Part shown: piece after piece, positions 25,213-28,277 of the stretch
Position numbering within the stretch: the stretch's first letter is position 1
Layout of the letters: each line of letters starts with the position of its first letter
IMG/VR virus record: IMGVR_UViG_3300030104_001680
Coordinates: 1 to 29,649 of that record
Length of the DNA: 29,649 nucleotides
Direction: 5' to 3' (one strand)
Source: a virus
Made by a program: the position numbers and the translations under genes
The notes under the pieces: model-generated
Seen by the model: only the letters and a program-made list of their open reading frames with translations
Told to the model about the DNA's origin: nothing
Database searches by the model: none

Positions 25213-27081
25213 ATGCAAGATAAGTGGGTTAATGTAGCTCCACGAATTGCTTTAGAAGTATTAGGAGAACCGAAAACTAAAACAGATAAAGAATGGCGTT
25301 GGGGTAGTAAAGGTAGTTTTGTATTTAATATTGAAGCAGGTACTTTCTTTGATTTTGAGAATGATACTGGAGGAGGAGTTGCTTGGTTATTAGAAACAAA
25401 CAATATAGAGAAAGACATTTTGCAAAAGTTCGATCAAGGCTTTGCATCCAATGGCAACAACACGATTACCTCCGTAGAAACTGTTGCCAAAACTACTCCA
25501 AAAAAAATGGGTGCAAAGTCTTTCCTTAGAGATGCCATGTTAAAGCTTTGGTCGCAAGCTGAAGTTAAACTTAAATACAATGACAGCTTTTTAGTCTTAC
25601 GCTTCCCAGAAGGACATCCAATCAAACAAAAGTACGCACCTTTTACAAAGGTTGGTGATAGTTGGGTGATGCGTAGACCAGAGGGCAAGTTGCCTATATA
25701 TAGCGAGTGCAACCATCCCAATAAGCCTATCCTCATTAATGAGGGAGAGAAGGCGTGCATGGGAGCAGGCAAGGTATATGAGGGCGATGTTGCCTGTTGG
25801 CATGGAGGAGCTAGGTCTTGGGAGAAATCAGACTGGTCGCCTGTATTTAATAGAGATGTTTATATCTTCCCAGACAATGATGATGTAGGTAAAGAAGTTG
25901 CATGGGAGTTAGGAAAGTATCTGAAGAAGAATGGATGTAGTGTAAGGATAGCTTTACCGCCTAAAGACTTTGCAGATAAAGACGATCTTTGGGATGCCAA
26001 TGAAGCTAACTACTTTGATAATAGTTTTGCGTTAGAGCAATACATAAAAGGTAATCAAATGTTACCACCAAAAAGCGATATTTACTTTCAACGCATCGAT
26101 GAAGTTATGGCGGAAGTAAAAGAGCCTGATTGGTTGATAGAAGATATGTTTGAGAGAGAATCAGTTATGTCTATCTTTGGTGCTGCTAAATCAGGTAAAT
26201 CTTTTGTAGCTATAGCTATGGCGTGTGCTGTTGCGATGGGAGAGCAGTTTTATGGAAGTGCTACTAAACAGGCAACTACGCTTTATCTGTGTGGAGAGGG
26301 CAAGCGTGGAGTTGGCAGACGTATAAAAGCTTATGAACAATACTTTAACAAAGACTTATCAAAAGCACCATTGCTGCTATCAAATAGAGGTGCAAGGATT
26401 ACAGAGGATGATGAGTTTGATAAGTTGTTGACAACTTGCAGGGAGATAGAAGAACAATATGGAAGTATCGGTTTAATTATATTTGATACCTTTCAGCGTA
26501 ACTTCTCAGGTAATGAGAACTCTAGTGAAGATGTGGGATTATTTATACAGCGATTAGATAAGTTAGTTGCAGAGTTTGGTGCTACATGTTGTTTTGTGCA
26601 TCATACAGGACATGGATCAAACGCTAGAGCAAGAGGATCAAGTGTTATACAAGCAAGTTTAGATTATGAGTTTAAAGTTAGTAGAGATGATATTGTTGAT
26701 GAAATGTGGGTTGATTTTGAGCAAACACTTAACAAAGATGGAATGGGTATGGCTAAGATGAATTACAAGTTCCATGAGGTAAATCTGCTTGGCTTTGATA
26801 ATCTAACAAGTGGGGTGCTGATACCTGAAGATAAGCCAATAGATATTAAAGAATCTACAGTTAATGAAGAAACTATAAAGGCACTTATAACTGTAGCTGA
26901 ACAGCAATGCCCAGACGATCCTGTAAGTGTTTGGCTAAATGCAGCAGATATAGAGGGTATATTGAAAGTAAAACGCAAGACTGCTCAAGGAAGATTGAAG
27001 CAATTGAAGGGAAAAGGATTGGTGCATTACAAAGAAAATTATGGTTATCAGGCTAAAAAATGGGATGAAGGAGTGTTTTGA
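25213..27081 (+). CDS. TOPRIM primase-like / RepA-type helicase fusion
   Basis: A 622-residue protein. Residues ~1-60 (RWGSKGSFVFNIEAGTFFDF then GGGVAWLLE) hold the place of a primase N-terminal domain but lack zinc-binding cysteines. Residues ~170-260 form a TOPRIM domain: Glu177 (LINEGE) and Asp221-Asn-Asp223 (YIFPDNDD). Residues ~310-520 form a RecA-like ATPase with Walker A GAAKSGKS (323-330), Walker B LIIFD (Asp425) and FVHHTGH, as in RepA-type helicases. The last ~60 residues look like a winged helix (AADIEGILKVKRKTAQGRLKQ). It probably opens the origin and/or primes and unwinds DNA. No DNA polymerase is in this window. It starts 3 bases after the SSB-like stop without a clear ribosome site. 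Confidence 0.85.
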   Translation: MQDKWVNVAPRIALEVLGEPKTKTDKEWRWGSKGSFVFNIEAGTFFDFENDTGGGVAWLLETNNIEKDILQKFDQGFASNGNNTITSVETVAKTTPKKMGAKSFLRDAMLKLWSQAEVKLKYNDSFLVLRFPEGHPIKQKYAPFTKVGDSWVMRRPEGKLPIYSECNHPNKPILINEGEKACMGAGKVYEGDVACWHGGARSWEKSDWSPVFNRDVYIFPDNDDVGKEVAWELGKYLKKNGCSVRIALPPKDFADKDDLWDANEANYFDNSFALEQYIKGNQMLPPKSDIYFQRIDEVMAEVKEPDWLIEDMFERESVMSIFGAAKSGKSFVAIAMACAVAMGEQFYGSATKQATTLYLCGEGKRGVGRRIKAYEQYFNKDLSKAPLLLSNRGARITEDDEFDKLLTTCREIEEQYGSIGLIIFDTFQRNFSGNENSSEDVGLFIQRLDKLVAEFGATCCFVHHTGHGSNARARGSSVIQASLDYEFKVSRDDIVDEMWVDFEQTLNKDGMGMAKMNYKFHEVNLLGFDNLTSGVLIPEDKPIDIKESTVNEETIKALITVAEQQCPDDPVSVWLNAADIEGILKVKRKTAQGRLKQLKGKGLVHYKENYGYQAKKWDEGVF

Positions 27082-27617
27082 TGATACCTTTTCCAAATAA
27101 AAAATATAATACAATAGTTCTTGATCCTGCTTGGAATATAACAATGGCTACAGTTTCATCTAATAAAAGAAGACCAAATACAAAAACAAAATTAGATTAC
27201 CCAACAATGACTTTAGATGAAATAAAGGCATTACCAATAGGAGAAATAGCAAATTTAGGTTGTCATGTATATACATGGACTACCAATAAAATGCTTCCAT
27301 ATACATTTGATGTATTAAAGTCTTGGGATGTAAATTATCACTTAACTTTAGTTTGGACAAAACACAATGGTATGACACCAAACTTTGCTTATAAATTTGC
27401 TACTGAATTTTGTTTACTTGGGTTTTATAAAAAACCTATGCAAAAATTTAAAAGATGTGGAAAGTTAAATTGGATAAGCACTAACGCACCAAGAAAACAC
27501 TCAACAAAACCACAAGAATTTTTTGATTTAGTAGAAGAAATGTCGCCTAGCAATTATTTAGAGATGTTTGCTAGAAATAAAAGAGATGGTTGGGATGTTT
27601 GGGGTAATGAGGTTTAG
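27081..27617 (+). CDS. MT-A70 family DNA adenine methyltransferase
   Basis: A 178-residue protein with the MT-A70 catalytic motif as DPAW (residues 15-18; DPPW is usual), the DYPTMTLDEIKALPI segment, a W-T-T-N-K strand and the C-terminal signature EMFARNKRDGWDVWGNEV. It transfers a methyl group from S-adenosylmethionine to adenine N6. AAGGAG (27068-27073) with a 7-base spacer selects ATG 27081, which overlaps the helicase stop. Genes like it are frequent next to replication genes in phages and may protect DNA or mark the adjacent origin-like repeats. The Ala in DPAW may alter activity. Confidence 0.85.
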   Translation: MIPFPNKKYNTIVLDPAWNITMATVSSNKRRPNTKTKLDYPTMTLDEIKALPIGEIANLGCHVYTWTTNKMLPYTFDVLKSWDVNYHLTLVWTKHNGMTPNFAYKFATEFCLLGFYKKPMQKFKRCGKLNWISTNAPRKHSTKPQEFFDLVEEMSPSNYLEMFARNKRDGWDVWGNEV

Positions 27618-27622
27618 TCAGG

Positions 27623-27771
27623 GTGGATATAAAAGTGGATAGATGTGGATATAAAGTGGATATAAATTGGCTATTTTCTATCCGAAATCAACATATAGTG
27701 GATATACTGGATATATATATACCTTGTATATATCCATGTATCCATAATGATCCGAGTTTTTGATATATCCA
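27623..27771 (+). repeat. iteron-like repeat cluster, candidate replication origin or operator
   Basis: This gap after the helicase and methyltransferase genes has the repeat GTGGATATAAA. Full or near-full copies begin at 27623, 27645 and 27656, and a shorter one (GTGGATA) at 27635. The spacings are 12, 10 and 11 bases, about one helical turn. Two more direct copies follow at 27698 (GTGGATATA) and near 27707 (CTGGATATA). Inverted copies (TATATCCA or TATCCA) are at 27729, 27739 and 27764. The whole tract is very AT-rich, with alternating TA runs that would melt easily. This is the look of an iteron origin or a cooperative operator. The binding protein could be the upstream RepA-like protein. 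Confidence 0.65.
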
Positions 27772-28277
27772 TGAAACATATATATAAAGATAATGCTTTG
27801 TTGCAAATTAAGATACTAAGGAAGCTTGAATCACAAATCACTAAAAGATGGGGTGGCAAGCATAGACTATTAAAAATAATACCAAGTAATGTTGCATTAA
27901 AATTTGAGAGAGCAGAATGGATGTTTAGAGAATCATTAAAGAAACAAAATTATAAAAAGATATTCTCTATGTGCGAGATGATGCAAAGAGCTTACGATGC
28001 AATTATCGAAGCTGCTACAGATAGTGGATATGCAGAACTTGATCCGAATATATCTTGCTATAAATACAATAAAGATAAATATGCACTTATCGTTGGTAAT
28101 GACTATGAGTTAGAAAATGTTTATCATAAATACAAACAAGAAGAAGATTGCATCATTTTTAGCATTGAAGAATTGTTTAGATGTATTCCTGAACATTGCA
28201 TAGATGCTAAAGAACAATTAACACAGGGTAACTTTAACCCTACATTTACAAAAATTAACTATGCCAACAAAACTTAA
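27771..28277 (+). CDS. protein of unknown function next to the iteron cluster
   Basis: A 168-residue protein starting MKHIYKDNALLQIKILRKLE. It is basic and helical in the first 80 residues (ITKRWGGKHRLLKI, FERAEWMFRESLKKQNYKK), then mixed (CYKYNKDKYALIVGNDYELE). An in-frame ATG at 27747 would add 8 residues, but the last inverted repeat copy runs up to 27771, so the shorter start is preferred; neither has a good ribosome site. The position directly after the repeats suggests a replication or regulatory role, but no known fold is recognised. Confidence 0.65.
   Translation: MKHIYKDNALLQIKILRKLESQITKRWGGKHRLLKIIPSNVALKFERAEWMFRESLKKQNYKKIFSMCEMMQRAYDAIIEAATDSGYAELDPNISCYKYNKDKYALIVGNDYELENVYHKYKQEEDCIIFSIEELFRCIPEHCIDAKEQLTQGNFNPTFTKINYANKT

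Follow-up and report, generated by a model that had tools for sequence, protein, structure and literature searches.

A phased iteron tract behind a TOPRIM/RepA-like primase-helicase gene is a probable replication origin in marine phages

The C-terminal domains of SaPI Rep and SCCmec Cch2 bind iterons located 3' of the helicase gene, as reported in the sections of PMC7581432 covered here, which cite Ubeda 2007. In phage P4, the winged helix of the alpha protein acts on origin repeats, and RSF1010 splits iteron binding, helicase and priming among RepC, RepA and RepB' (PMC4234260). The locus described here lies in a window of 29,649 nt, the whole stretch of DNA analysed, which spans positions 1 to 29,649 of IMG/VR record IMGVR_UViG_3300030104_001680. 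As proposed for this locus, SaPI Rep/ori and SCCmec Cch2 pair an initiator helicase with short iterons directly after its own gene that are recognised by its C-terminal domain. The helicases of SaPI Rep, Cch and Cch2 are DUF927 or D5/Primase_Cterm types, whereas ours combines an AAA_25/RepA-like RecA fold with TOPRIM. P4 alpha likewise holds a TOPRIM primase, a helicase and a winged helix (the last predicted in our case) in one polypeptide. Its helicase belongs to SF3, in contrast to the SF4/RepA-like helicase here. No counterpart of the second P4 repeat region, crr, was seen as a second TGGATA cluster in the window, with the proviso that the record may miss a little sequence at its ends.

The oriV of RSF1010 (IncQ) shares with our locus a RepA-type hexameric helicase and iterons plus hairpins at the origin, which in our case is a proposed one. 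RSF1010 uses three separate proteins with RepB' as primase, whereas iteron binding, helicase and TOPRIM primase appear fused here, and neither a separate RepC nor a RepB'-type primase was seen among the 10 window proteins scanned. Lambda O resembles the proposed initiator in placing a winged helix on iterons; in lambda, however, the iterons are located within the O gene and O itself is no helicase, whereas our tract lies 3' of a helicase gene. Among cultured phages, the CRP-822-type roseophage family, as far as it is covered by the sections of PMC12629253 used here, has a gene order similar to that of the window phage, a gpA terminase about 48-50% identical, and a primase-helicase gene followed by an iteron tract, but its isolates carry iterons differing from those of the window. 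The genome-architecture section and searched passages of PMC12629253 describe no origin. By analogy, our best reading is that the locus would work like the SaPI Rep, P4 alpha and RSF1010 systems but within one RecA-fold (SF4) polypeptide.

The proposed initiator is a protein of 622 aa encoded on the plus strand at 25213-27081 (Pfam AAA_25, 2.3e-33). Matches to phage primase/helicase families support its assignment as a TOPRIM primase joined to a RepA-like helicase, the Toprim_3 match itself being weak. The closest solved helicase is RSF1010 RepA (PDB profile match 1.8e-10), and structure comparison gave a Z of 23.8 to 1g8y over residues 283-539, indicating a RepA/DnaB-like RecA fold. The C-terminus (aa 543-622; 26839-27078, plus strand) is predicted to be a winged helix and is the proposed iteron-binding domain. 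In the AlphaFold2 model, helices at 547-565, 577-584 and 588-600 are followed by strands at 604-607 and 611-614, which is winged-helix order. Single-sequence Pfam scans of the domain returned weak wHTH matches, the homologous domain of one distant relative (L065) has a match of 5.2e-6 to Phage_rep_O (the lambda O family), just under the curated cut-off, and a search of the PDB with a profile of the C-terminal domains gives weak matches to winged-helix regulators (best E 0.0022). A fold search with the full helicase model produced a match list filled by the RecA domain.

An MT-A70 adenine methyltransferase gene (27081-27617, plus strand; Pfam MT-A70, 2.1e-26), probably starting at the ATG at 27081, separates the helicase gene from the tract. 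The statement that the tract directly follows both genes needs qualifying: the methyltransferase is missing from most close relatives, where the tract comes directly after the helicase stop. One gene intervenes between helicase and iterons in the window, L016, L048 and L056, and none at most loci. DNA methyltransferase genes directly follow the helicase in several lineages, mostly between helicase and tract, and are of MT-A70 type in the window, L016, L048 and L049 and Dam-like, as judged by eye, in L056 and L090. Their recurrence suggests either that insertions favour this site or that methylation and the origin are connected.

The tract itself (27618-27770) is non-coding. Four direct iterons, GTGGATA(TAAA), occupy 27623-27666 on the plus strand. 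GTGGATA begins at 27623, 27635, 27645, 27656 and 27698, exactly where an earlier note made from the sequence had placed it, and the spacings of 12, 10 and 11 that the note gave for the first four copies are correct. A sixth direct copy, put near 27707, exists but is TGGATA at 27708. Of the inverted copies, that at 27739 was rightly located, while the starts given as 27729 and 27764 take in flanking AT, the TATCCA cores lying at 27731 and 27766. A degenerate inverted copy, CTATCCG (27678-27684), had been overlooked; it reads TATCCA in relatives L013 and L021. In the sequence and the alignment of 13 tracts, this copy shares the spacer (27667-27697) with a AAATCAAC element. The spacer sequence AAATCAA(C) (27684-27691 in the window) is common to GTGGATA-type tracts and to the AGGGAAG-type tracts of L028, L048, L055 and L056, whose iterons differ.

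The repeats are real and non-random. GTGGATA occurs 8 times in the window against 2.65 expected, a count reached in 0 of 100 shuffles. Nine TGGATA/TATCCA cores fall within 27624-27771, inside a single 150-bp stretch; elsewhere in the window, 150 bp never contain more than one. The best 6-mer count in the tract is 8, compared with a shuffle mean of 3.05, and 0 of 500 dinucleotide shuffles reached it.

Downstream of the spacer, a palindrome at 27698-27744 carries in its arms the direct iterons at 27698 and 27708 and the inverted iterons at 27731 and 27739. Consensus folding of the 13 tracts yields a stable hairpin in which one pair is changed on both sides in three sequences; the window's own perfect stem is no longer than shuffles often give (P 0.14). 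The last inverted iteron core (TATCCA, 27766-27771, minus strand) shares one base with the next gene, namely the A of its start codon (ATG at 27771). This gene encodes 168 aa (27771-28277, plus strand) and has a homologue beside the tract in marine relatives. An alternative ORF start at 27747 is not conserved, being lost to a frameshift in L016 and lacking an ATG in L014, so we place the start of this gene at 27771. Its product gave no confident Pfam or PDB match, and its mostly helical AlphaFold2 model found no fold-search match with E < 0.1. In roseophages, inspection by eye alone pointed to a similar protein.

Close relatives of the same iteron type keep this arrangement. The repeats, including the four phased direct copies, are almost invariant across the 13 aligned tracts. 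Over the 10 genomes compared, mean pairwise identity is 91% for the tract, 97% for iteron columns and 88% for other tract columns, but 71% for four-fold sites in the neighbouring helicase gene. Spacings of 12/10/11/42/9 were identical in all five GTGGATA tracts measured. The earlier note had held that an origin here would be contradicted if related phages lacked conserved repeats; both repeats and phasing are kept under strong constraint. When the window region was used to search the phage collection at the DNA level, nothing matched, and a genome-contig scan found two relatives only. In the SAR86 single-cell assembly AG-390-L11 (contig CACEDS010000004.1; L091), a helicase relative 50% identical is followed by AGGGAAG-type iterons, a hint at the host range of the group. 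Contig IMGVR_UViG_3300050343_000089 (65.7 kb; L058 and L059) carries two copies of the helicase region ~33.9 kb apart and is possibly an assembled concatemer of two variants.

In distant relatives, with helicases about 40-50% identical, a tract occurs at the equivalent place, between the helicase gene, in some cases followed by one or two others, and the downstream ORF. The shared layout consists of direct copies about 10-12 bp apart, a spacer, and a hairpin flanked by inverted copies, built from about ten different repeat sequences across divergent phages, cultured roseophages included. The iterons are AGGGAAG in L028, L048, L055 and L056; GTGTGTA in L029, L057, L058, L061 and L064; TCTGCCA in L051; TGTCTAT in L053; GGTTCG in L065, L067 and L068; and, more weakly, GGTTT in L063. 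Among cultured phages they are GCTGGAA in CRP-406, GTATAAA in CRP-821/822/831, CTACAAA in CRP-811/823, GGTACA in Idiomarinaceae phage 1N2-2 and GGTTCA in Alteromonas phage PB15. The best repeat beats shuffles at P <= 0.03 in 22 of 23 tracts, the remaining one (L056) giving 0.09. Spacing of direct copies is often 10-12 bp (11/11/11 in L055, 10/11 in CRP-406, 11/11 in L065), and the hairpin sits towards the downstream side, its stem alone being significant in some tracts only. Hairpin tips are often CCTTTAGG, CCTATAGG or CCGTAGG across iteron types; the window tip, ACCTTGT, has no GG. By eye, the Manatee Spring RepA phage shows no such tract 3' of its helicase gene.

For 20 marine loci we compared the identity of four helicase parts and of the downstream ORF with iteron type. 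In the pairs L028/L029 and L055/L064, the iterons differ while the N-terminal primase part is 89 and 93% identical and the downstream ORF 85 and 94%; the helicase core is 51% identical in both pairs and the C-terminus 20 and 11%. The reverse case is provided by L028/L055 and L029/L064, which have the same iterons and 90% identity in the helicase core, with 55-56% in the N-terminal part and 44-45% in the downstream ORF. At the nucleotide level, identity rises again near the downstream ORF's start codon. These pairs make the downstream ORF and the N-terminal part unlikely determinants of iteron type, leaving the core and the C-terminus.

This comparison bears on the reading that the tract is an operator, its repeats binding a regulator of downstream genes (either the helicase-primase itself or the 27771 product) while replication starts elsewhere. 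The tract does lie just upstream of the 27771 gene, with its last iteron on the start codon, and initiators often regulate transcription too. A promoter scan of the tract, however, revealed no promoter-like site above chance, and the multi-copy layout, phased and inverted around a hairpin, suits origins better. Moreover, the downstream ORF falls to 58-63% identity within the window's clade with unchanged iterons, and is 85-94% identical in pairs with switched ones, which argues that its product is not the binder. We consider an operator without origin function improbable. Still less probable is an untranslated RNA element or a terminator, a reading to which the stable consensus hairpin lends some weight. 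The terminator scan gave no terminator-like site above chance, and entire iteron motifs differ from lineage to lineage, on both strands, with the spacing retained, a pattern that fits a protein site on double-stranded DNA.

The cultured roseophages separate the helicase core from the C-terminus. CRP-821 and CRP-823, which share host strain FZCC0197, have helicases 98% identical over residues 1-250, 94% over 250-390 and 99% over 390-640, but 60% over 640-690 and 73% from 690 to the end. Their downstream ORFs are 89% identical, and all 10-11 repeats are switched (GTATAAA vs CTACAAA). The iterons of CRP-811 and CRP-831 sort by C-terminal type, whereas their N-terminal parts do not. In these sequences, then, repeat type appears to change with the C-terminal winged-helix domain. 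TerS and TerL are identical over the aligned residues in CRP-821, CRP-823 and CRP-831, yet the three carry two iteron types. With host and terminase the same and the downstream gene 89% identical in CRP-821 and CRP-823, host factors, the terminase and the downstream gene are unlikely binders. The earlier note had offered both the helicase product and the 27771 product as candidates; the comparison points to the C-terminal domain of the former and away from the latter.

Two observations temper this assignment. In the distant set, iteron type is predicted a little better by identity in the helicase core (AUC 1.00) than by identity in the C-terminus (0.98), which evolves fast; and because the C-terminal coding region adjoins the tract, a single recombination event could carry both without functional coupling. 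Where a gene has been inserted (window, L016, L048, L056), however, helicase type and iteron type still agree, which weakens, but does not remove, an explanation by plain linkage.

The same pair of phages leaves little room for reading the repeats as sites for DnaA or some other host factor. A DnaA box differs by one mismatch from TGTGGATAT (27644-27652), and GTGGATA resembles most of TTATCCACA, but such matches are not conserved from tract to tract, an exact box occurring in the L056 tract only, and CRP-821 and CRP-823 carry different iterons in one host strain; we regard this reading as very improbable indeed. Scans with DnaA and IHF consensus sequences were inconsistent across tracts, and the AAATCAAC spacer element is only loosely IHF-core-like. 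A cosB-like packaging site bound by the terminase small subunit, conceivable given the gpA-type large terminase and the repeated sites of lambda cosB, is just as improbable, since phages with identical TerS and TerL have two iteron types and the tract lies beside the replication genes, away from terS.

We conclude, with a probability of about 0.82, that replication of the phage originates in the tract (or that its initiator is loaded there) and that the tract is bound by the C-terminal winged helix of the phage's own primase-helicase. The iteron-origin or initiator-operator interpretation in the earlier note is supported in that the repeats are constrained in relatives, and distant phages and isolates show the same layout built from other motifs. 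GC skew of the window and of three complete roseophages, all with nearly one-directional coding, showed no extremum that counts. From sequence and structure prediction we infer a series of steps from iteron binding to priming that would make up origin activity. The primase-helicase encoded just upstream would bind the iterons through its C-terminal winged helix, with protomers gathering along one side of the helix at the four direct iterons, which are spaced by about one turn. A second set of protomers, oppositely oriented, would be loaded by the pairs of direct and inverted iterons that surround the hairpin. Melting of this AT-rich region would follow, a RepA-type hexamer would assemble on the single strands, and the TOPRIM domain would prime.

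We also put forward, tentatively and at somewhat less than even odds, that these phages represent a replicon class of their own, widespread among marine siphophages. Such a replicon would rely on one TOPRIM/RepA-fold (SF4) polypeptide that finds its own origin by means of a C-terminal winged helix open to exchange. Lineages may repeatedly switch this domain and all the repeats as a single recombination cassette, and phages that infect one host would thereby retain distinct replication specificities.

The locus offers a testable pair of origin and initiator for marine phages that form a large group, mostly uncultured, and for which the parts of the literature covered here describe no start of replication. 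The same-host roseophages, with near-identical helicases, a different C-terminal domain and every repeat switched, amount to a natural experiment on the co-evolution of initiator and origin.
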